From a bacterium (GTDB lineage: Bacteria > UBA8248), in NCBI GenBank assembly GCA_022828125.1, contig JAJEJD010000018.1:1-64000 (forward strand): a stretch of 64,000 bases of DNA, read 5' to 3'. Below, one piece after another: positions 14,719 through 31,406 of this stretch. Under the pieces are notes generated by a model. That model did not search any database. It worked only from the letters and a program-made list of their open reading frames with translations, and was not told where the DNA came from. The stretch's first letter is position 1, and every line of letters starts with the position of its first letter. The position numbers were made by a program, and so were the translations under genes.

Positions 14719-15284
14719 TTTTCTTGAAGTGGTGAGGCCTTGTCCCGGCCAGGGGATGTTGAAAACCCTTTGCCGTTAGATCGGGAATTCACCGTAGGGG
14801 CGGACCTGCGTGTCCGCCCGTTTTTCGTTTCCGCGGGGGCAGGGCGGACACGCAGGTCCGCCCCTACGGGTCGTAATTCACCAACACCGTCATTCCGGCG
14901 AAAGCCGGAATCCATTTTACGCCTTTTGCCTTTCATCAGGGTTCCCGCGCATCATCGGGGAAGGAAAAGCCGCCGTTCATTCATCCGCGTCCGCAGAGGG
15001 ATTCCGGCTTTCGCCGGAATGACGAGCAAAAGCGGAAACCCCCGGTTTCCGGCATTCCCTCGCGCCCTGGTCGGAATGGACCTGTAGGTGGCGGTCCCTC
15101 CTCGGGACCGCCCCACGCATATATGCGGCCCATGGTTGAAAGGCGAAAAAGAAGGGTCGCATGTATGCGACCCCTACGGGCGTCCTTACCGTGATACCAG
15201 CCTCAGCCTCAACCGTTGCGGGATTTTGCCTTTGTAGTAACAGGCCCCTGTGCCTGCCCTGGTTGCCCCGCGCCTACCCCCGCC
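14719..15284. repeat. Cluster of unrelated palindromic repeats
   Basis: No gene is supported. Within 400 bases there are: a 27-base exact inverted repeat (14793-14819 / 14842-14868, arm starting CGTAGGGGCGGACC); a doublet of the ATTCCGGCGAAAGCCGGAAT family (14888-14918 and 14999-15024, opposite orientation); a hairpin GGCGGTCCC / GGGACCGCC at 15090-15112; the palindrome GCATATATGC at 15117-15126; and GGGTCGCAT / ATGCGACCC at 15154-15173. The spacer also carries a GTTGAAAACCC motif near 14757 that recurs beside other repeats. Confidence 0.85.
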
Positions 15285-19197: not shown

Positions 19198-19698
19198 GGC
19201 CTGCGCCCGGTTTCGGGTTTTGGCCGTCATTCCGGCGAAAGCCGGAATCCATTTTCGCCTTTGATTTTTCGCCTCCTCGTTCGGACGTCTTTACTCCCGG
19301 GCGAGGAGGAGCGGAATCGAACACAAAAACGAAAGGCGAATTGTTTGGATTCCGCACCCGGACGCCGCGCAACAACAAGATCGTGGCCGCCCTGTTCGGT
19401 GAAAAGTCAAAATGGATTCCGGCTTTCGCCGGAATGACGGCGGTGGTCAATTCCGACCAAAGATGACTTTTCAACAATCCCTTCTCAGTCGCGTTTGACC
19501 TTCGGCGGCTACTTAGGGTGAGGTTGATATGGCGGTATGCAATACGATGGTTTGACGCGATTGATATATGAGCATCAAATGCTTTCGCTCCAAGAAAGGC
19601 CTTTTTCAACAACCCCTTGTTTTTCCCTCTGATTTTTAAGAAGATAGCCTACCGCCGCCCACTACGGCGCATGTTGCCCGTTATCCCGGTGATTTTCG
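19198..19698. repeat. MITE-like spacer between folK and panC
   Basis: An exact 31-base inverted pair (19225-19255 and 19409-19439, core ATTCCGGCGAAAGCCGGAAT) bounds a 215-base element. A degenerate half of the CCTGAGTAGC family lies at 19499-19525. The motif TTTTCAACAA(T/C)CCC occurs twice (near 19469 and 19600). No gene is supported. Confidence 0.8.
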
Positions 19699-20553
19699 AT
19701 GAAAGTCCTTGATACGCCTCAAGATATGCGTGCGCTGGCCGAAGTTCTCAGGCGCGACGACGCGCCGCTCGGGCTGGTTCCCACGATGGGCGCGCTGCAC
19801 GAGGGGCACAAAAGCCTCATCGCCCGGGCGAGGGAGGAGTGTGGCGCCGCCGTCGTGAGCATTTTCGTGAACCCGGCCCAATTCGCAGCCGGTGAGGATT
19901 ACGACACCTACCCGAGGACTTTCGAGGCGGATCTGGAGGCCTGCCGGGAGATGGGCGTAGCCTGCGTATATGCGCCCAGGGCGAATGCCATGTACCCCGG
20001 CGGATACGACACCTGGGTGGACGTGCCGGGCCTGGGAGCGCCCCTTTGCGGGAGCCACCGGCAGGGGCACTTCCGGGGCGTGGCCACGGTCGTGCTCAAG
20101 CTCATCGCAGCCTGCCTCCCGCACCGGGCCTATTTCGGCGAGAAGGATTACCAGCAACTCGTCCTGATCCGCCGGATGGCGCAAGACCTCGACTTAGGCG
20201 TTGAGATCGTTCCCTGCCCGATAGTCCGCGAGGACGACGGGCTGGCGCTCAGCAGCAGGAACGCCTACTTGTCGACGGATGAGCGATCCCGCGCGCGCGC
20301 CATCAGCGCCGCCTTGTTCGACGCCAAAAAGAAGGTGGCGGCCGGGGAGAGATTTTCCGCCGCCATCATCGGTGCTTGCATGGATGAACTGGAGAAAGCG
20401 GGGTCCAGGGTCGATTATGTGGAGATCGTGGAACCGGCGACACTCGAAAGGGTAGATAAAATAAACGGCGCCGCCCGGATGGCCGTGGCGGCCTATATCG
20501 GCGAAACCAGGCTTATCGATAACATCCTGTTGGAGCCTCACGATGAGGCGTAG
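19699..20553 (+). CDS. panC: Pantothenate synthetase (pantoate-beta-alanine ligase)
   Basis: 284 aa. It joins pantoate and beta-alanine with ATP to give pantothenate, the CoA precursor. The nucleotidyltransferase start 'LVPTMGALHEGHKSL' contains the HIGH-like motif; 'SIFVNPAQF', 'YFGEKDYQQL' and 'LALSSRNAYLS' are the further family signatures. Ordinary length. The next gene starts inside its last codons (11-base overlap), so it is translationally coupled to the TPR/Tol-type gene run. Confidence 0.97.
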   Translation: MKVLDTPQDMRALAEVLRRDDAPLGLVPTMGALHEGHKSLIARAREECGAAVVSIFVNPAQFAAGEDYDTYPRTFEADLEACREMGVACVYAPRANAMYPGGYDTWVDVPGLGAPLCGSHRQGHFRGVATVVLKLIAACLPHRAYFGEKDYQQLVLIRRMAQDLDLGVEIVPCPIVREDDGLALSSRNAYLSTDERSRARAISAALFDAKKKVAAGERFSAAIIGACMDELEKAGSRVDYVEIVEPATLERVDKINGAARMAVAAYIGETRLIDNILLEPHDEA

Positions 20554-23206
20554 TCTCCTCGTTATCGCGGCGCTCGTTCTGGCGGGGGCCGCCCTCGCGC
20601 CGACATCCCTGGTTCGGGCGCAACTCCAGGAAACCCCGCAGTCTCATCTCGAATTCGGCCTGAACACCTTCCAGGATGGCTTTTACGAGCCTGCGATTGA
20701 CGCCTTCCGGGCCTACTTGAAAGCAGCAGGCGACAGCGAAGCGGCTTCGATCGTGCGTTATCTGCTCGCCGAGGCGCTTCGTCGTGACGATCGGCCGGGA
20801 GAGGCCATCGCCGCGTATCAGGCGTTCGTGAACCGGTATCCACGCCACGAAAGGGCCGGCGAGGTTCAGTTTCGAATCGGCGTGCTCGCCGAGCGGATCG
20901 GGGACAGGAAAGGGGCGATCCGCGCCTATTCTTCCGTGAATCCCGGGCGCTACCGGATAGAGGCCGTCTACCGGGTCGCCGCGCTCAGGCTGGCGAAGCG
21001 CGAGTGGCGGGGCGCGGTCGCCGCGCTCGATGAATTCATCAAGTCGGCGCCCAAGGATCCCCGCGCGGAAGATGCCCTCTTCGAGCGGGCCATCGCCCTG
21101 GATCACATACCGCTGATCAAGGAGGCCGAGAAGGCGTACAGCCTGGTCGTGCGCCGTTTCCCGCGCAACCCGAGAGCGCATGCCTTCAGGCTGCGGCTGG
21201 CGAAAATACAGCTTGAGCTCAAGAAGTTCGGTTCGGCGGAGAAGACTTTCGACTCCTTGTTTCAGGGACGACCCGGAGAGAAAAAACGCGCCGACCTGAG
21301 GCTGGGGCAAGCCGCGAGTCTGTTCGCGCAGAAGAAGTACCCCGAGGCGGGCGCGGCATTCGAGGCCGTTCTGGGCATGAAACTTTCAGAACCACAACGC
21401 AGGACGGCGGAGCGGGGCCTGGCCGCTTCCTGGTGGCGCGCCGGTGAATACGCGAAGGCCGCACCGGCCTATCAACGCTTGATTCGGAACCCGGCCGGGG
21501 ACGGGGCCTATCTCCTGTTTTTCCTGCAAAGCGTGGAAAAGGCGGGGCTATGCGCGGGAGGAGGCGAAAAATATCTCGCTTTTGCGCTCGACGCTCTCGG
21601 CAAAGGCGCGCCGCTGCCTTCTTCTTCACGCTTCCGGATGGCGGATTGCCTGCTTCGCGCGGGCTTGAAGAAAGAGGCGCTGGGCCAATACGGCGAACTC
21701 ATCCGGCGCGCGCCGGATACGCGCGAGGCGGTGTGGTCCGGGCTGCGTCTGGCCGACTTGCTCGAAAAAGAGCCTGAGCGGAACACGCAAGAGCTTCTCA
21801 AACGCTATCGGCAGGTATTGGCGTCGTTCGAGGGGCTCAGAAAATCTGAGAAAAAACTCGAGCCCGAGATCATGCGGGCCGTATATCAGGGCGTTCTCAG
21901 GGCGGCGTTCATCCACAACGCGCGAAAGGATTGCGCCCGCTCCGTCGCCCTGGCGAAAGTGGTTCCCGAAGCGTATGTTCCGCGGACCTTGCGCGCGGAG
22001 GTGGCTTTTTTGAGAGCCGAGTGCGCGTGGAAAGCCGCAAGATTCGATGAGGCGGGCGCGTATTATCGCCAAGTCGCCTCAGGCAAGAGACGCCCCGGAC
22101 TCGGCATCCGGGCGCGGTATCGACTGGGCGAGTTGGCCGAGAGGCGCGGCGACAAAAAAGATGCCTTGAAGCGTTTTCAGGACGTTTTGCCGCATCTTCC
22201 CGAAGAGTTGAAGCGCGAGGCGCGCTTGAAGATCGGCGACCTGTACCGCGCGCAGGGCGATTTGCAAAATGCGCGGGCATTTCTTCTTCCGCTTGCCGGC
22301 GATGAGGCGGTGAGCGCTCCGAGGAGGCGTTCGATCTGGTATTTCCTGGCGCGAAATGCCGTCAGCGCGCGGGACTGGAAAGGCGCGGATGCGGCCTTCT
22401 CGTCCTGGAACGCGCTCGACCCGCCCGATCCCGGCGAGGGGCTGAGGCTCTGGGCGCTCGTGTTGTTCGAGCGAAAAGACTGTGCTCGCGCCGTCAAGAC
22501 CTCGCAGCGGGCGCTTCGACATGAGAGGACGAAGAACGAGAAATTGGCGTTACACCGGCACCGGGCGGCGTGTTTTCTGAAAGAGAACAATTTGCGGGAA
22601 TTCGCGGGGGCGCTTCGCCATATCCACACCCTGGCCCCCCAGGATGCGGATGTGGCCCTGAGGCTGGGCGAAGCCTTCGAGAACCTGGGAGATAACGACA
22701 AGGCCGCTCAAGCCTATACGGATTTTCTGGGCAAATTCCCTGAAAACGGTAAAGCGGGTATGGTGGCCTTGCGCCTTGGTACGATTGAACTGCAAAGAAA
22801 AAGGTCCGAGGCGGCGACGGCGGCCTTTCGAATCGCCGCGAAATCGGATGACGGGAACATTTCCGGTCCCGCCCGGTTCCAAATCGCTGTGCGGTTCGAG
22901 GAAGAGGGGGAATGGAACAAGGCGCTCGATATCTTCGAGTCGTTGATGCGCTCGGGCCCGGGCGGTCGGGAGTGGGTGCGCTCGGCGGCCTGGCGCGCCG
23001 CGGCGATTCGTGAATCGCGCCGTGAGTGGAAGAAGGCCATCCGCCATTACCGGAGCATTGCGGCACTCGAGAACGGAGGGGTTTCGGCGCGGATGGGAGA
23101 AGAAATCAAGAAAGCGAGACTGAGGATTCGCCGGCTTGAGTCTTACCTGGCTTCGGTCAAGGAGCGCGAATGGAAAATGAACAACCAAAAGCCGATGCTT
23201 CGATGA
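20543..23206 (+). CDS. Large periplasmic TPR-repeat protein (first of two)
   Basis: 887 aa with an N-terminal Sec signal peptide (cleavage near residues 24-27, 'SLVRAQ'). The mature protein is almost entirely tetratricopeptide-like helical repeats; recurrent 'A..AY..F..RYP.....G.....R.G' units start at residue ~35 and run to the end. TPR arrays bind partner proteins. It is the first of a closely spaced set of two TPR proteins plus TolQ-, TolR- and TonB-like proteins, with only 7 bases to the next gene, so I expect a periplasmic scaffold of an energised envelope complex. No enzymatic domain seen. Confidence 0.8.
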   Translation: MRRSLLVIAALVLAGAALAPTSLVRAQLQETPQSHLEFGLNTFQDGFYEPAIDAFRAYLKAAGDSEAASIVRYLLAEALRRDDRPGEAIAAYQAFVNRYPRHERAGEVQFRIGVLAERIGDRKGAIRAYSSVNPGRYRIEAVYRVAALRLAKREWRGAVAALDEFIKSAPKDPRAEDALFERAIALDHIPLIKEAEKAYSLVVRRFPRNPRAHAFRLRLAKIQLELKKFGSAEKTFDSLFQGRPGEKKRADLRLGQAASLFAQKKYPEAGAAFEAVLGMKLSEPQRRTAERGLAASWWRAGEYAKAAPAYQRLIRNPAGDGAYLLFFLQSVEKAGLCAGGGEKYLAFALDALGKGAPLPSSSRFRMADCLLRAGLKKEALGQYGELIRRAPDTREAVWSGLRLADLLEKEPERNTQELLKRYRQVLASFEGLRKSEKKLEPEIMRAVYQGVLRAAFIHNARKDCARSVALAKVVPEAYVPRTLRAEVAFLRAECAWKAARFDEAGAYYRQVASGKRRPGLGIRARYRLGELAERRGDKKDALKRFQDVLPHLPEELKREARLKIGDLYRAQGDLQNARAFLLPLAGDEAVSAPRRRSIWYFLARNAVSARDWKGADAAFSSWNALDPPDPGEGLRLWALVLFERKDCARAVKTSQRALRHERTKNEKLALHRHRAACFLKENNLREFAGALRHIHTLAPQDADVALRLGEAFENLGDNDKAAQAYTDFLGKFPENGKAGMVALRLGTIELQRKRSEAATAAFRIAAKSDDGNISGPARFQIAVRFEEEGEWNKALDIFESLMRSGPGGREWVRSAAWRAAAIRESRREWKKAIRHYRSIAALENGGVSARMGEEIKKARLRIRRLESYLASVKEREWKMNNQKPMLR

Positions 23207-23213
23207 GGGATAA

Positions 23214-26200
23214 ATGATGCGGTTCCCGGCGTATGGTATACGGCGCAGGCTTCTCCTCGGCCTGGCGGCGATATGCTTTGCTAGTCCGGGTGCGGAAAAT
23301 CATGCGTCGGCGCAGGACAACAGCGCCGCCGGGGGGGAGCAACTCACCATTTCCCTGCCCGAAGTCGTGGTAGAATCGCCCAGCATCGAGCATCTCATCG
23401 CTGCCCGCGTTCGGCCCGTGCCCCCCAAGCGGCTGGGCGTTCGCCTTCCCCCCGTATTCATCAAGCTCGAAGCTCCATCGATTCGCCTGCCCGTCCGCCC
23501 GATACCGGTTGAGAAAAAACCGGACCAGGATTTGACGCTATACTTCGGGAGTACGTCGGATGATTTTGTCAGCGAGAGTGAACATTTCAACACGGCGTAT
23601 GCCTATCTGCGTAAGGGATCGCCCGTAGAGGCGCTCGCTCTTTTCGATGCTTTGGCGAATAAAACGAAGCTTCATTTCTGGCGCGCGGCGGCGCTCTACT
23701 GGGCGGGAGAGACGCTTCTGGATTTAAGAAAACCTCAGGAGGCGAGGGCTAGAAGAGAGAGGTTGTCGAGCCTGCTGCTGGCCGACGGGCTGCAATATGC
23801 GGCGGCCGCAAGATACGCCCTGGCTCTGGAGCGTTGCGAGGCGCGTGACTACGAGGGGTGTCTCGGTCTGCTGGATGGGGGATCGTGGGAAAAAGGAAAC
23901 TTCGCCTATGAGGAGGCGATTTTCCTGAAAGGCTGGGCGCAGTCGAAAGCGGGCGCCGTCGATGAGGCGATCGAGACCTGGACGACGCTTGCGGACGCGA
24001 AAGGGCGGCTGGCGTTTCAGTCCCTCGTGGCGCTCGGGCATATCCATCTCCAAAGAGGAAATCATGCCCGGGCGGAAAAACGCTATGCGGCCGCCGAAAC
24101 GTTCGCCTCGGGCGGAGGTGAGACCGACGAGGCGCTTCAGGGAGAAGCGCTGTACGGCATCGGGTGGACGCGGTTGTTCCTGGGCCGGGTCGAGGAGGCA
24201 AAGCGCGCTTTTTCTCTTTTCATACGTGATCACCCGAAGCATCTCCTCGGGGTTTTCGTGCACGCGGGTTTGCTTTCCGCTGAAATCGAGTCGATCCGGC
24301 AATCCCGGAAAGGGTTGAAAGCGTTAAGAACCCGCCTTTCGGGATTTTCTCGCGCCAATCGCCGAAAAACGCTCGCCGGCGCTTTGCGCCTGCAACTGGC
24401 CTGGAAGCTGTTCCGGATCGGGGTGTATGAAGAAGCATCCGTTCTGGCGGGCAAGGTGAGCGACGAGTTCCCGCTCGGCAGGATCTACCGCATCGCGAGA
24501 ATCGTGGAAGGCCTCTCCCGGTACCATCTCGGGAAAGTGAAGCGCGCCTACGGGATTCTGCGGCAGGGCGCGGATTACCCGCCGGTTTCCGCTCACCGGC
24601 TGGCGGAGCAGGATGCCGCTCGCTCTGCGGCGATGGGGACGGCTTTCGCCGCATTCAGGCTCAGAGATTTCAAGGGCGCTTTGAATGTGCTGAAACATTG
24701 GGCTTTCCTGCCGGAGAGAGGTTCGGCGATTTCGCCGGACGGGCTGGCCATGTTGTGGTATGGGGAGGCGGCCTTCGAATTGGGCCGTCTTGATGAGGCG
24801 GCTCGCGCCTTCCGGGCGGTTCCCGAACGGACGCCCGAGTATTACCGCGCCCTGGGAGGACTCGCGTGGGTCCAGTACCGGAAGATGAACTGGAAAGAAG
24901 CGGCGCTCGCCTTCGACCGCGTTTTCGAGCATAAGCCGGGGGGAGTCCTGGCGGCGGAAGCTCTCGCTCGCGCGGGTGAGGCTCGCTTCAACCTCAGAAA
25001 CTACGACGGCGCCCTGCAATCTTTCGAAAGGATAGAGAAGAAATACAGAGGCAGCGACGTCGCCAAAGAGGCGTTGTACCAGAAGGCGAGATTGCTTTTC
25101 AGGCGCAGTCGTTTCGATGCGGCGGAGAAGAATTTTCATGTCTTTTTGAAGCGCTACCCCGAAAGCAAAGCGGTGCCCGAGATAAAATATCTTCTGGCGC
25201 TGGTTCCTTTCCGCAAAGGCGATTACGCCCTGGCGCGGGAGAAACTTCTTGAATTTCTCGAATTGCATCGAGATTCCTCTCGGGCGGGAGATGCCTATTT
25301 GCGCCTGGCCGACTCATCGTACAACCAGGGAAGCTACAGGGAGGCGAACCGGTTATATCGCCTCATGATGAACGGATATCCTGCCCACCTGAAGTACTCC
25401 GAAGCCGTCTATGGCCGTTTGCTCACCCACCTTCAACTCGGGGAGTATGCGAACTTCTTATCGGGCGCGCGTGAGTATGTTGACCGCTATCCGGAGAGCA
25501 ACCTGAGCATTTCCCTGGCATTTCAAATCGGCGAGGTTCTGCTCACGCAGCGGAATACGGCAGGCGCCCTGAGGGCGTACAAGGACGTCATCGCGCAATA
25601 CCCGCAAAACCAGCTGGCCGCTCATGCCCTCTTGAGGATGGCAGGCATACATCGAAGCGAAAAAGATATCGACAAAGCCCTTGATTCGTATGAGACTTTG
25701 TTGACCCGGTATCCGGCGGGCGGTTTCCGCGCCGATGGGCTTTTCGCCGTCGGGGAAACCCTGGCCGGCATTGGGCGGTGCACGGAGGCGAAGCAGAGAC
25801 TGACGGAATTTTTGGAGACGTATCCGGGCCATGACTATGAAATGCTGGCTCGATTCGCCCTGGGGCGCTGCCTGGTTCGGCTGGTCGAGCATGGCGCGGC
25901 GCTCTCTCACCTTGCGATGGTCATGAACAGTGAATCCGCAGGTGTGGATTTGCGCAGTCAATCCGCGCTCCTGGCGGCCGAGCTATACAGGAAGCGAAGA
26001 AAATATGCCGATGCGCGGCGCGCGCTGGGCTTCGCGGTCGAGTATGGCGCGCCCGAACTGGCGGCGGAGGCGTTCTTCGCGCACGCCCGGATATTCTCCG
26101 AGCGGAGAGACCCGGGCGCGGCGGCCGAGTATTTGAAGTTGACCTATCGATACCCGGATCAGAAAATATGGGTAGCGCGGGCGTTGGGGCGGGCAGGTGA

Positions 26201-26348
26201 GCTGTACGAAAAAGCGGGGAAACGAAAGCTCGCCCTCCGGGTGTACCGGAAGATGAGCAAGGTGGTGGAAGAGCCCGCATGGAAGCGAAAAGCCCGAATC
26301 GCCATCAGGCGGATTACGAAACAAACCAAAAAGCGTGCGCGGCGGTGA
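23214..26348 (+). CDS. Very large TPR-repeat envelope protein (second of two)
   Basis: 1044 aa; ATG preceded by GAGGGA. A signal peptide covers about residues 1-33 ('LLLGLAAICFASPG'). A proline-rich segment of ~60 residues (~55-105) follows, then TPR and Tol-Pal YbgF/BamD-like repeats to a basic C-terminus. Many repeats show 'A...YP.......A...L' spacing ('FFLKRYPESKAVPEIKYLLA'-like units), the type seen in YbgF, which works with Tol-Pal. The TolQ homolog starts 37 bases downstream. Paired large TPR proteins beside TolQR sets also occur in gliding-motility loci of myxobacteria, but nothing here proves that role. Confidence 0.8.
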   Translation: MMRFPAYGIRRRLLLGLAAICFASPGAENHASAQDNSAAGGEQLTISLPEVVVESPSIEHLIAARVRPVPPKRLGVRLPPVFIKLEAPSIRLPVRPIPVEKKPDQDLTLYFGSTSDDFVSESEHFNTAYAYLRKGSPVEALALFDALANKTKLHFWRAAALYWAGETLLDLRKPQEARARRERLSSLLLADGLQYAAAARYALALERCEARDYEGCLGLLDGGSWEKGNFAYEEAIFLKGWAQSKAGAVDEAIETWTTLADAKGRLAFQSLVALGHIHLQRGNHARAEKRYAAAETFASGGGETDEALQGEALYGIGWTRLFLGRVEEAKRAFSLFIRDHPKHLLGVFVHAGLLSAEIESIRQSRKGLKALRTRLSGFSRANRRKTLAGALRLQLAWKLFRIGVYEEASVLAGKVSDEFPLGRIYRIARIVEGLSRYHLGKVKRAYGILRQGADYPPVSAHRLAEQDAARSAAMGTAFAAFRLRDFKGALNVLKHWAFLPERGSAISPDGLAMLWYGEAAFELGRLDEAARAFRAVPERTPEYYRALGGLAWVQYRKMNWKEAALAFDRVFEHKPGGVLAAEALARAGEARFNLRNYDGALQSFERIEKKYRGSDVAKEALYQKARLLFRRSRFDAAEKNFHVFLKRYPESKAVPEIKYLLALVPFRKGDYALAREKLLEFLELHRDSSRAGDAYLRLADSSYNQGSYREANRLYRLMMNGYPAHLKYSEAVYGRLLTHLQLGEYANFLSGAREYVDRYPESNLSISLAFQIGEVLLTQRNTAGALRAYKDVIAQYPQNQLAAHALLRMAGIHRSEKDIDKALDSYETLLTRYPAGGFRADGLFAVGETLAGIGRCTEAKQRLTEFLETYPGHDYEMLARFALGRCLVRLVEHGAALSHLAMVMNSESAGVDLRSQSALLAAELYRKRRKYADARRALGFAVEYGAPELAAEAFFAHARIFSERRDPGAAAEYLKLTYRYPDQKIWVARALGRAGELYEKAGKRKLALRVYRKMSKVVEEPAWKRKARIAIRRITKQTKKRARR

Positions 26349-26385
26349 AAATCGAACGCCCACATTAACGCAAAGGTGCATATCG

Positions 26386-26985
26386 ATGTTTGAATTTTTG
26401 GCCACAGGCGGGGTGTTGATGATTCCGTTGGGTGTTTGCTCCATCTTGGCCTTGGCCATTATCCTGGAGCGGACCCTGAATCTACGCACAAGGAAAATCA
26501 TTCAGCTCGACATATTGCAGCAGGTCAGGGATCTGGTTGCGGAGAACCAGGTGTCCGACGCCATAACCCTTTGCCGACGCTATCCTTCGGTCATGGGCAG
26601 GATACTGCTCGTTACGATAGCGAATCACGACAGAGACCGGGAAGAACTCCGATCCGTCGTGGAGGATGCCGGCAGGCAGGAGGTCACTACGCTCGACAGG
26701 AATCTGGGAGCTCTCGGAACGATCGCCGCCATATCGCCGCTCATTGGGCTGACGGGTACGGTTTTCGGCATGATTCGCACCTTCGCCGTCATCAGTGAAA
26801 AGGGAATCGCTCACCCCAGCCAACTGGCGGGCGGCATCTACGAAGCGCTCATCACGACGGCGACCGGACTCGTCATCGCCATACCCACGCTCATTTTCTA
26901 CAACTATTTCACCAACAAGGCGGACCGCCTCATCCTGGAAATCGAAAAACATTCCTACCGGGTCGTCGAGACGCTGAAGCGGTGA
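26386..26985 (+). CDS. TolQ/ExbB/MotA-family proton channel protein
   Basis: 199 aa from the ATG at 26386; the upstream track start adds unrelated residues. Three membrane helices: ~10-28, ~105-130 ('LGTIAAISPLIGLTGTVFGMI') and ~150-170 ('ALITTATGLVIAIPTLIFYNYF'). The 'PLIGLTGTVFGMI' and 'LITTATGLVIAIP' stretches are the family signature of the inner-membrane channel that uses proton flow to drive TolA, TonB or similar energy transducers. The TolR-type partner starts 7 bases downstream. ExbB, TolQ and other paralogs cannot be separated by eye. Confidence 0.92.
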   Translation: MFEFLATGGVLMIPLGVCSILALAIILERTLNLRTRKIIQLDILQQVRDLVAENQVSDAITLCRRYPSVMGRILLVTIANHDRDREELRSVVEDAGRQEVTTLDRNLGALGTIAAISPLIGLTGTVFGMIRTFAVISEKGIAHPSQLAGGIYEALITTATGLVIAIPTLIFYNYFTNKADRLILEIEKHSYRVVETLKR

Positions 26986-26992
26986 GCGAGCG

Positions 26993-27418
26993 ATGAAATT
27001 TCGTGATATCAGGCGCGTGCGGGCCGAACCCGGCATGACGGCCATGATCGACATTATCTTTCTGCTGCTCCTGTTCTTTGTCCTGAGTTCTTCATTCGTT
27101 CTGCAGCCGGGCGTCAAGGTGGAATTGCCGCGAACCGTCACGCAGGAACACCCCGTCCGCAAGGATTTGATACTCATCATTTCGCGTGATGAAAGGGTTT
27201 TTCTGAATAACGATCAGGTGCCCCTGAAGTCGCTCTGGGGCCGGTTGATAGAAGAGTTGAAGGTGCAGCCGGAGGGCCTGATCATCATTCGGGCGGACAA
27301 GGGCGTGCCGCACGGTATGGTGGTGCAGGTGATGGATATCGCCAAGCAGGCGGGCGCCCTGCGCATGTCGATTGCGACGGCGCCGACGAAACGGGTGCAG
27401 AAAAAGACGACGAACTAG
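26993..27418 (+). CDS. TolR/ExbD-family biopolymer transport protein
   Basis: 141 aa. One N-terminal membrane helix (~residues 15-38) carries the conserved aspartate of the proton path in 'TAMIDIIFLLLLFFVL', exactly as in ExbD/TolR. The periplasmic domain 'VFLNNDQVPLKSL...GLIIIRADKGVPHGMVVQVMDIAKQAG' has the typical ExbD fold. It lies between the TolQ-like and TonB-like genes with small gaps and should form the motor with them. Confidence 0.93.
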   Translation: MKFRDIRRVRAEPGMTAMIDIIFLLLLFFVLSSSFVLQPGVKVELPRTVTQEHPVRKDLILIISRDERVFLNNDQVPLKSLWGRLIEELKVQPEGLIIIRADKGVPHGMVVQVMDIAKQAGALRMSIATAPTKRVQKKTTN

Positions 27419-27443
27419 CCCGGGGGAGGCCGGCTCAAAGACC

Positions 27444-28289
27444 ATGAGCTTTTCACTTATCCTGACGATTCTGGTTTCCATCGCCATTCATACGGGGTTG
27501 ATTCTGCTCGGCCCCGCCGTGACGCTGGGCCCGATATTCGCCGGACAAACCGAAAGAATGGAAGTCGACCTCGTGCGCCGCGAGGTTCCCATCCCCGAAG
27601 CGCTGCTGCCGAAGGTGCTGCCCGAGGTTCCCCTGCCGGAACCGCTGGATCTGAGCCGTATGCTTCAAAAACGATCCCTGGGCGATCGGGACCTGAATCT
27701 GGACTTGAAGTCGAAGCTCGTAGCGCCCGATCCGGGGGAGTTGCCCGAGAGCGAGCCGCTGCCCGATGCCCCGGCTCTGGAAATGCCGAAACCGGTGCTT
27801 GCGCCCGGCGAGATACCTTCGATGAGCGCTTTGCAGGCGGGCGGGGCGCTGGACGAAATCGTTTTGCCGGTGGATGAAAAGGCGAAGGCAGGGGAATCAA
27901 GGGGCTTGAAGCGCAGGAAAAAGGTGGCGCTGCCGGGTTCCGAAGCGGACCGGAAAATGCTGGAGCAATTATCGCGTCTGAGTTTCCCCCGATCCGCCGG
28001 GCGGAAGAGCCGGACCAACATCGCGGGGCCGGCGGCGAGGCGGAGAATCCTGTTTCAGCCCAAACCTCCGAAACTCGAGAGGCTCGAGAGCACGACGGAG
28101 ATCGTGCTGAAGTTCTGGGTGTTGCCCGACGGCACCGTCGGCCGCGTCATTCCGACCAGAAAGGCGAGCGCCTACCTCGAGGGCCTGGCTTCGAACCACC
28201 TGAAGCGCTGGCGCTTCAGTCCGCTTCCGCCGGGAGCCGAGGACAAGGAGCAATGGGGCGAGATCGCCTTCCGTTTCCTGTTACGCTGA
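27444..28289 (+). CDS. TonB-family energy transducer
   Basis: 281 aa from the ATG at 27444; the track's earlier start overlaps the ExbD-like gene. An N-terminal membrane helix ('LTILVSIAIHTGLILLG') is followed by a long Pro/Glu/Leu-rich periplasmic spacer and a C-terminal TonB-like domain ('LKFWVLPDGTVGRVIPTRKAS' ... 'LKRWRFSPLP'). It should carry energy from the TolQR-like motor to an outer-membrane or periplasmic partner, here plausibly the two TPR proteins. No TonB-dependent receptor is encoded in the window. Confidence 0.85.
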   Translation: MSFSLILTILVSIAIHTGLILLGPAVTLGPIFAGQTERMEVDLVRREVPIPEALLPKVLPEVPLPEPLDLSRMLQKRSLGDRDLNLDLKSKLVAPDPGELPESEPLPDAPALEMPKPVLAPGEIPSMSALQAGGALDEIVLPVDEKAKAGESRGLKRRKKVALPGSEADRKMLEQLSRLSFPRSAGRKSRTNIAGPAARRRILFQPKPPKLERLESTTEIVLKFWVLPDGTVGRVIPTRKASAYLEGLASNHLKRWRFSPLPPGAEDKEQWGEIAFRFLLR

Positions 28290-28937: not shown

Positions 28938-29966
28938 ATGCGCGCCGTGGTTCTGCATGAATGGGGAGGCCCCCTGACGCTCGAAACGGTGCCCGACCCG
29001 GCACCGGGCCACGGGGAGGTCGTGCTGCGCGTGCACGCCTGCGCGCCGGATCAGTTCGACGTGACCATCCGCGCGGGCCGGATCGGCGGAAAGCTGCCTC
29101 TCATCATGGGGCACGAGATCGCGGGCGAGGTGGCCGCACTCGGGCCGGGCGTCGAGGGATGGGCCGAGGGCGACCGTGCGATCGTTCACGCCTATCTCAC
29201 CTGCGGGCGGTGCCGGTTCTGCCGGCTCGGGCGGGTGACGCTTTGCGAGGATTTCCTGGGCTACTTCGGGGTGCACCAGGACGGCGGCTACGCCGAGTAC
29301 GTGCGGGCCCCGGCGGAGAACCTGTGCGCCATTCCCGAAGGGGTGGGCTACGCCGAGGCCACGACCATCGTGAGCCCGGTGGCGACCCCGCTCAAGGCCA
29401 TCAAGACGCGCGCGGGCGTGCGCCCGGGAGATGACGTGGTCGTCGTCGGCGCCTGTGGCGGCGTGGGGATCCACGCAGTCCAGATCGCAAAAGCCTTCGG
29501 CGCGCGCGTCATCGCAGTGGACATCGACGACGCCAAACTCGCCCGCGCGCGGGAACTGGGCGCGGACCACGCGGTGAACGGCCTGAAGGAGGACTTCGCC
29601 GAGGTGGTCGAAGAGGTCACCGGCGGGGAGGGTGCCGAGGCCGTGCTGGAGTTCGTGGGCACGGAGCAGACGCTGCCGAAAAGCTTCGCTTCGCTCGCGC
29701 GGACGGGCGTGCTCGTCGTCGTGGGCTTTCAGCCCGGAACCGTCTTCGCGAGCGACCCCACCCGCTTCGTGAACGATGAGATCACGGTTACGGGTTCCCG
29801 CTACGTGAACCGCGCGGAGCTGGCCGAGGCCGCCGACTGGGTCGGGGCGGGCCGGGTGAAGCCGGTCGTATCAAAGACCTACCCCCTGGCCGAGGTGGAA
29901 CAAGCGCTGGCCGACCTGTCGGAGAACAAGGTGGTCGGCCGCGCGCCGGTTCTGATCGATTCGTGA
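28938..29966 (+). CDS. Zinc-dependent medium-chain alcohol dehydrogenase
   Basis: 342 aa with a strong AAAGGAGG ribosome binding site. Zinc-binding groups are intact: catalytic zinc ligands around 'CAPDQFD' and 'GHEIAGEV', and the structural zinc lobe 'CGRCRFCRLGRVTLC'. The NAD(P) Rossmann motif is 'VVGACGGVGIHAVQ' and 'VIAVDIDDAKL' suggests NAD preference. Substrate unknown. It stands alone on the plus strand between MaoC and a repeat spacer. Confidence 0.9.
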   Translation: MRAVVLHEWGGPLTLETVPDPAPGHGEVVLRVHACAPDQFDVTIRAGRIGGKLPLIMGHEIAGEVAALGPGVEGWAEGDRAIVHAYLTCGRCRFCRLGRVTLCEDFLGYFGVHQDGGYAEYVRAPAENLCAIPEGVGYAEATTIVSPVATPLKAIKTRAGVRPGDDVVVVGACGGVGIHAVQIAKAFGARVIAVDIDDAKLARARELGADHAVNGLKEDFAEVVEEVTGGEGAEAVLEFVGTEQTLPKSFASLARTGVLVVVGFQPGTVFASDPTRFVNDEITVTGSRYVNRAELAEAADWVGAGRVKPVVSKTYPLAEVEQALADLSENKVVGRAPVLIDS

Positions 29967-30469: not shown

Positions 30470-31312
30470 TCAGGTGGCCGCAGGCTTCCAGTCGTAAATC
30501 CGCTGCAGGGCGCCTCCCATGAGAGTCGCGCGCTCATCATCGCTCAGTCGGTCCGTGAGACGGAACGGCGCCACGGCCTGCTCGTAGGTCAGCAGGTTGA
30601 CCGCGCGCGTCCAGTCGGTGCCCCACAGGCAGCGGTCGAAACCGAATGCGTCGAAAACTGTGCATAGTGGGTCCCAGATGTCGTCGTAGGGGTAGGGCTC
30701 GTGAGACAGCGTGCAGGCGCCGGTGACCTTCACGGCGACGTTTTCGTGATCTGCAAGCGCGAGGAGCTTAGGCAAGTCGGCGAAGGGCGCCGGCGGCGCC
30801 GGCGGATAGAAGGGCTGCTCCAGACCTAAGTGATCGACCACCAGCATCGCGTTCGGGTGCGCGCGTGCATACCGCGCGAAATGCTCCAGCAAGCCCCAGC
30901 CCATGAGGTTGACCGGCATGGAGGCGCAGGCGGCGGCGGCGAGAACCCGGCCGATTCCCGGATGCTCGGGGTCGAGGCCGGGGCCGGGGTTCAGCATGAT
31001 GCGCACCCCCACCGTCCCCTCCAGCGCGGCCCACTCCGCAATCGTCTCCCCTACGGCGGGGTCGGTCGGGTCGACCGGCTTGATCAAGGCGAACCGGCCC
31101 GGATGCGCGGCATGGACTTCCAGCGCATAGGAGGCGTCGTAGCGGTAGAGCGCGAACGGCGAGATGAGCACGGCGGCATCGACCCCGACCGCATCCATGG
31201 CGGCGGCCATGTCGTCACCCGTGACCTCGGGCGGTCCCGGCAGAGCACCGGCCCATGGCCGCCCCGGGTAGTCCCTCTCATAGGCGTGGACCTGCGCGTC
31301 TAACGTCAGCAT
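30470..31312 (-). CDS. Amidohydrolase family 2 (metal-dependent lactonase-like) protein
   Basis: 280 aa from the ATG at 31312. A TIM-barrel amidohydrolase of the Amidohydro_2 group, with the N-terminal metal motif reduced to D-x-Q-x-H ('LDAQVHAY'), a central 'LVVDHLG' histidine, and the C-terminal 'LWGTDWTRAV' aspartate. This subfamily includes lactonases and decarboxylases of aromatic or sugar acid degradation; substrate unknown. It lies 94 bases beyond the MoaD/ThiS-like gene in the lar direction and could be the end of that transcript. Confidence 0.82.
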   Translation of the reverse strand: MLTLDAQVHAYERDYPGRPWAGALPGPPEVTGDDMAAAMDAVGVDAAVLISPFALYRYDASYALEVHAAHPGRFALIKPVDPTDPAVGETIAEWAALEGTVGVRIMLNPGPGLDPEHPGIGRVLAAAACASMPVNLMGWGLLEHFARYARAHPNAMLVVDHLGLEQPFYPPAPPAPFADLPKLLALADHENVAVKVTGACTLSHEPYPYDDIWDPLCTVFDAFGFDRCLWGTDWTRAVNLLTYEQAVAPFRLTDRLSDDERATLMGGALQRIYDWKPAAT

Positions 31313-31406
31313 GGTTTGCGTCCCCCCTCCGGCGGGCAAAAGCGCAAAGATTCCTTTCGCTACGCTAGCTTATTGACCGCTTTCGCCGCCATACCCAGAG
31401 AGCGGT

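Follow-up and report, generated by a model that had tools for sequence, protein, structure and literature searches.

TonB pulls on outer-membrane receptors, and TolA on Pal–TolB. TPR proteins encoded beside TonB or TolQR motors are also already known. In the Vibrio TonB2 system, the TPR protein TtpD2 is encoded together with ExbBD–TonB and is needed for transport (PMC6957404). The Fibrobacter succinogenes cluster FSU_2396–2403, which is raised on cellulose, comprises genes for OmpA, TPR, TPR, ..., ExbB, ExbD, ExbD and TonB, and complexes from outer-membrane vesicles have been reported to contain its TPR protein FSU_2397 (PMC6851124). Clusters of the type TPR-tolQ-tolR-tolR-vWA have been listed for the PVC group without a function (PMC12204202). 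The Agl/Glt gliding system of Myxococcus contains the TPR proteins GltD/GltE, the TonB-domain transducer GltG and the TolQR-type motor AglRQS (PMC3169522). Here we compare these systems with a locus in a 64-kb window (the whole stretch of DNA that was analyzed), with which contig C21 begins; the contig belongs to a 3.9-Mb MAG with a completeness of 97%. The locus encodes two giant TPR proteins next to a TonB-type motor, and one of them carries a segment resembling the TonB box of receptors.

Architecture of the locus

Open reading frames and Pfam matches define a panC–TPR1–TPR2–ExbB–ExbD–TonB block at positions 19699–28289, with the following features.

19699..20553, + strand: panC, the neighbour overlapping TPR1 (PF02569 Pantoate_ligase, 9e-102)
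20543..23206, + strand: TPR1, an 887-aa exported TPR protein, two genes upstream of exbB (open frame; TPR families; FQDGFYEPA)
23214..26348, + strand: TPR2, a 1044-aa exported TPR protein (open frame; TPR families; AlphaFold2 model)
23343..23381, + strand: TonB-box-like segment LTISLPEVVVESP, TPR2 residues 44–56 (conservation; same segment on sister-cassette barrels)
23382..23558, + strand: conserved Pro-rich linker of TPR2, SIEHLIAARVRPVPPKRLGVRLP..., residues 57–115 (family alignment)
26386..26985, + strand: ExbB/TolQ-like proton-channel subunit, 199 aa, three TM segments (PF01618 MotA_ExbB, 4e-34)
26993..27418, + strand: ExbD/TolR-like subunit, 141 aa (PF02472, 2e-29)
27050–27052, + strand: ExbD TM aspartate Asp20 (inside the TM helix)
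27444..28289, + strand: TonB, 281 aa (PF03544 TonB_C, 3.7e-4; model; PDB matches 1u07 and 2gsk)

The overlap between panC and TPR1 is 11 bases. TPR1 and TPR2 match Pfam TPR families at 1e-31 and 8e-39, and inspection by eye assigned both a Sec-type signal peptide without a lipobox, the likely cleavage in TPR1 being after residue 26 (between VRA and Q). For ExbB and TonB, the first GTG/TTG codons are disfavoured; the shorter frames from ATG 26386 and ATG 27444 are the likely ones because these starts align across relatives. The frames and Pfam matches bear out the earlier note on this DNA, which had recognized the two exported TPR proteins, the TolQ/TolR/TonB-like run, the panC overlap and a Pro-rich segment in TPR2, the last of which lies after the signal peptide. 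Its observation that the window lacks a TonB receptor and TolB extends to the entire contig: a match search found no cognate TonB-dependent transporter (box, plug and barrel) in the cassette or on its contig, and no TolB match on that contig.

The transducer matches Pfam TonB_C under the curated cut-off. This weak call was rescued by the structure model of its C-terminal domain (about residues 196–278; pLDDT mostly 75–94), for which the best PDB matches are the E. coli TonB CTD 1u07 and BtuB:TonB 2gsk (Foldseek, E about 1e-3); as modeled, the domain is a true TonB fold. The TM helix of TonB carries Ser12/His16, nearly invariant in the family alignment, and the protein has a conserved Pro-rich motif, VPIPEALLPKVLPEVPLPEPLDL. 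The motor features of a TonB–ExbB–ExbD system are present, namely ExbB and ExbD with the TM aspartate, and a transducer with the TM Ser/His and a TonB-fold C-terminal domain. The name TolQ–TolR used in the earlier note fits to the extent that the genes are TolQ/ExbB- and TolR/ExbD-like, but it is loose, given a transducer of TonB type by fold and a Tol–Pal system elsewhere in the genome.

Like the TonB–ExbB–ExbD systems of BtuB and FhuA, the locus combines motor subunits and a TonB fold with a hydrophobic box-like segment behind the signal peptide of a neighbour; unlike them, the bearer of this segment is a TPR solenoid without barrel or plug, and no receptor is linked. Membership in the Vibrio TonB2/Ttp group was rejected: there, one 425-aa TPR protein is encoded downstream of tonB along with TtpB/TtpC, whereas here two giant TPR genes stand upstream, and the cassette contains no TtpC/TtpB, no further ExbB-like gene and no other gene. 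The Fibrobacter cluster, likened here by gene content, also has two TPR genes near exbB-exbD-tonB, but differs in its two ExbD genes and its OmpA gene; by analogy, it hints at surface assemblies as the process served. In the PVC clusters, too, a TPR gene adjoins a TolQR-like motor with its transducer, but that transducer is of vWA type and there are two TolR, in contrast to the TonB-fold transducer and single ExbD of the cassette.

The Agl/Glt system, to which the earlier note had compared the locus, has TPR proteins, a TonB-domain transducer and a TolQR-type motor in common with it. The TPR proteins might then be envelope-spanning parts of a gliding or surface-adhesion machine, moved by the motor. 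We consider this very unlikely, and gliding machinery was rejected on its features. Agl/Glt has two TolR-like subunits, the FHA–TonB transducer GltG and several further Glt proteins in scattered loci, whereas the cassette has one ExbD, a transducer without an FHA domain (Pfam) and none of the Glt outer-membrane partners; the scores for GltE (35 of 225 bits) and GltC (16 of 450 bits) are far under the cut-offs.

Conservation and genome context

The nearest named relatives of this genome are Nitrospinota/Tectomicrobia MAGs, several of which we take to stem from sponges or marine water. TPR2 is present in 16 of 18 family genomes, and the two without it are 67–70% complete. As far as the contigs reach, all 16 keep the order aminotransferase-HPPK-panC-TPR1-TPR2-ExbB-ExbD-TonB-MaoC, with TPR2 identities that range between 85% and 30%; ExbB identity within the family is 56–98%. 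Given an order kept over such divergence, the arrangement of TPR genes and motor is not a matter of chance. The functional link between them proposed earlier gains support from this fixed synteny, and the opposite pattern, with TPR genes absent, unlinked or reordered in relatives, was not what we found. panC is a conserved neighbour within the family, but the cassettes of other families were not seen to include it. The TPR1 slot of the most distant member (L051 6486–8027) is occupied by a 513-aa protein, in which a short TPR-like part is followed by a long charged part, probably a coiled-coil. The main text of the Aplysina Tectomicrobium metaproteome makes no mention of the TPR or motor proteins.

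Downstream of MaoC, an alcohol dehydrogenase-like gene (window 28938–29966) and an amidohydrolase-like gene (30470–31339) are found in some family members, whereas others lack them at this place. Two inverted-repeat elements (14889–15023 and 19223–19441) have the 20-mer CCGGCTTTCGCCGGAATGAC in common at their ends, with four exact copies against 0.03 expected. The second, with 40-nt arms at 93%, lies between HPPK and panC, in a gap whose length varies among relatives. These elements have the look of a small mobile repeat.

ExbB/TolQ is also encoded at two further places in the genome. A complete TolQ-TolR-TolA-TolB-Pal set with a CpoB-like protein is found on contig C31, and a group of receptor, periplasmic binding protein and TonB on contig C22; the cassette of the window is therefore an additional motor, separate from Tol–Pal. 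Three TonB receptors are encoded in the genome, none of them on the cassette's contig, and one has a clear canonical box (LDPITVTA), with a periplasmic binding protein and its own TonB nearby. Contig C4 encodes, directly behind groES-groEL-like genes and without adjoining ExbBD, a protein of 565 aa that has a TonB C-terminal domain (L178 3858–5555).

TPR1 and TPR2 score 151 and 206 bits against the NCBIfam YbgF model, whose cut-off is 90 bits, which might point to a second Tol–Pal-like envelope-constriction system with enlarged CpoB/YbgF proteins. We rate this reading as the least probable of all those considered, the YbgF score being one that adds up over many repeats. CpoB/YbgF is a protein of about 260 aa, an N-terminal coiled-coil followed by one short TPR domain, encoded beside pal, whereas TPR1 and TPR2 are several times longer and TPR2 is TPR throughout. 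The cassette lacks TolB and Pal, and in fold comparison its transducer is nearer TonB than TolA. Both CpoB/YbgF identity and Tol–Pal membership were rejected, as TolB, Pal, TolA and a CpoB candidate already sit in the separate, complete system on C31.

Sister cassettes outside the family

A profile of the cassette's TonB C-terminal domain matched 93 genomes in a sample of 386 over the domain, and 40 neighbourhoods of these matches were annotated with home-made profiles for TPR, ExbB, ExbD and TonB. Cassettes related to that of the window thus came to light in many other families. Where exbBD adjoin this type of TonB, the upstream genes usually encode giant TPR proteins. Form A, TPR1-giant TPR2-ExbB-ExbD-TonB as in the window, occurs at L112, L114, L118, L119, L125, L180, L181 and L183, and also at L110, where TPR1 cannot be seen. 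In form B the order is TPR1-like giant TPR-protein X-ExbB-ExbD-TonB; it occurs at L120, L123, L126, L130, L135, L138, L144 and L147 and, in one further phylum, at most of the longer loci. Few further TPR-type cassettes came from the phyla of G049, G065 and G104, which have one or two genomes each, and a few more from that of G094.

Protein X of form B is 470–680 aa long (open frame). In part of the cases it matches the barrel of TonB receptors (PF00593 at 7e-17 in L130; weak or no matches in others); the receptor matches are confined to the barrel region, and no plug domain was matched in the form-B X proteins. Plug-less receptor-like barrels with a box, adjoining giant TPR genes, are seen at L120 5891–7648, L130 518–2083 and similar places. 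A dedicated barrel elsewhere in the genomes of the window's own family was not found: a profile from an alignment of 16 barrels matched only the last strands of ordinary receptors, and the idea of a hidden partner barrel there was rejected.

In a scan of named genomes, several distant exbB relatives (Omnitrophota, Planctomycetes and Verrucomicrobia) have TPR genes beside exbB-exbD, and the Verrucomicrobia-type loci have two ExbD genes, matching the published PVC clusters. Not all TonB matches have a cassette, some standing alone or in long proteins. The same type of C-terminal domain is found in proteins of 450–756 aa at L113 8147–10417, L115 1–1950, L116 3692–5044 and L122 9852–11783, near which the profiles found no ExbB or ExbD; these proteins are possibly other transducers.

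A putative TonB box on TPR2

The segment LTISLPEVVVESP lies some 10 residues past the point where the signal peptide of TPR2 is predicted to be cleaved, and the 12-residue stretch from residue 48 ranks 20 of 1033 for conservation (four genera). In the AlphaFold2 model (mean pLDDT 83.8), TPR2 forms a single uninterrupted TPR solenoid (about 50 helices, residues ~107–1043) behind a disordered N-terminus, with pLDDT below 50 for residues 6–67 and of 25–29 for the segment. We found no sequence feature anchoring TPR2 to the outer membrane. In BtuB, the Ton-box pentapeptide ETVIV pairs with the sheet of the TonB CTD, with a Kd of 9.4 uM as a yardstick (PMC5413942). Judged by sequence, the TPR2 segment resembles such a receptor box in that it is short, hydrophobic, near the mature N-terminus and apparently free to pair with the TonB sheet.

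A long periplasmic solenoid could also be a scaffold that positions or activates ExbBD–TonB, as TPR proteins place flagellar stators, and the fold matches of TPR2 include 9hmf_K, a chain of the periplasmic scaffold in the Campylobacter flagellar motor. However, these matches are generic to TPR proteins, with IFT-A, Ski3 and Ctr9 ranking higher, and a scaffold would leave unexplained why the box shifts between two kinds of bearer, TPR proteins and outer-membrane barrels. Such a role appears improbable to us.

This shift is seen across the sister cassettes. Form-A giant TPR2 proteins carry LPEVVIIGED, LPEVVIVGKD and LPEVVVVGED (LPEVVVESP in the window), form-B X proteins carry LPDVLILGQDR, LPEVLVYGRD and similar segments, and LPEVVIIGED is identical letter for letter in the L110 TPR2 and the L130 barrel. 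The consensus behind the signal peptide, LPEVV[IV]xG, is found on folds unrelated to each other (giant TPR and plug-less barrel). The strict pattern LP[DE][VIL][VIL][VIL] within the first 170 residues was present in 21 of 38 proteins encoded first upstream of exbB versus 0 of 31 second upstream (Fisher 1e-7), a value to be read in the light of a pattern chosen after the data were seen, of many related form-B loci and of many barrel cases from one phylum. Split by type, the exbB-proximal proteins with the pattern were 4 of 7 among the TPR proteins and 17 of 31 among the others, which include unrelated genes such as lysS. The one occurrence among 211 other proteins is the L110 TPR protein, where a small, probably spurious frame lies between the TPR gene and exbB; at all 22 loci with the strict pattern its bearer is the exbB-proximal protein and never that of the TPR1 slot. 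The internal rate of the pattern is 2 in 114,687 residues, and shuffled starts give about 0.001. Some exbB-proximal proteins have variants (LPEVTIIAE, LPQELIVAA and IPDIIIRAT), the most distant family member has LKIPPVTIN at the segment position, and no box is recognizable in the exbB-proximal proteins of L135, L146 and L167. The TPR1 slot has a signature of its own, ..DGLY..A, a loose and post hoc pattern found in 20 of 21 second-upstream TPR proteins versus 1 of 6 exbB-proximal ones; TPR1 of the window has it as FQDGFYEPA. The core of the cassette would then consist of TPR1, a box protein, ExbB, ExbD and TonB, with an apparently exchangeable exbB-proximal slot that keeps its tag.

The segment could bind TPR1 instead of TonB, because TPR1 is as constant a component as TonB. 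TPR grooves bind extended peptides, and both cassette types pair the box protein with a TPR1-slot protein; LPEVVV might thus be a docking site through which TPR1 keeps TPR2 or the barrel within the same complex, with TonB acting elsewhere, for example on the unlinked receptors, all three of which are encoded outside the cassette. We regard this as unlikely. The sole receptor with a clear canonical box is the one served by its own periplasmic binding protein and TonB, and on the receptor-like barrel the box lies behind the signal peptide, beside exbBD-tonB, the classical place of a TonB box. The best reading of these sequence comparisons is that the TPR2 segment is a putative TonB box and TPR2 a direct client of TonB. 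The earlier proposal that the TPR proteins are the target or the track of the motor is thereby supported in part, as a target and for TPR2 alone; nothing was found in support of a track.

A putative model for the cassette

The present comparisons enable us to propose a dedicated proton-driven machine, in which TonB captures the box of TPR2 and pulls or remodels TPR2 and TPR1, with a client that is exchangeable between cassettes. We hold the chances of this model to be about even. Initially, ExbB–ExbD would use the proton gradient to drive the periplasm-spanning TonB, a step that rests on knowledge of the family and on the conserved residues. By strand augmentation, as with receptors, the TonB C-terminal domain would then grip LTISLPEVVVESP in the disordered N-terminal part of mature TPR2. 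Afterwards, force may pass to the TPR2 solenoid and its partner TPR1, pulling or remodelling both. In the sister cassettes, the client in place of TPR2 would be an outer-membrane beta-barrel that lacks a plug and bears the same box. The process driven would most likely be a remodelling of an outer-membrane or surface assembly.

Our literature search, whose coverage leaves aside most subscription journals, returned only Tol–Pal reviews and nothing that connects TPR proteins with a TonB box; the box-bearing TPR client appears to be what is new here. If true, a portable box that marks the client would allow a peptide-binding test of what the motor drives, and would serve as a rule for recognizing, in other genomes, which proteins an orphan TonB motor has as its clients. 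More broadly, and more tentatively than for the model itself, TonB may have clients that are not receptors: a family of cassettes across many bacterial families would pull on an exchangeable box protein, either a plug-less barrel or a soluble, giant TPR solenoid, and the gradient would then drive an outer-membrane or surface assembly and not nutrient uptake.
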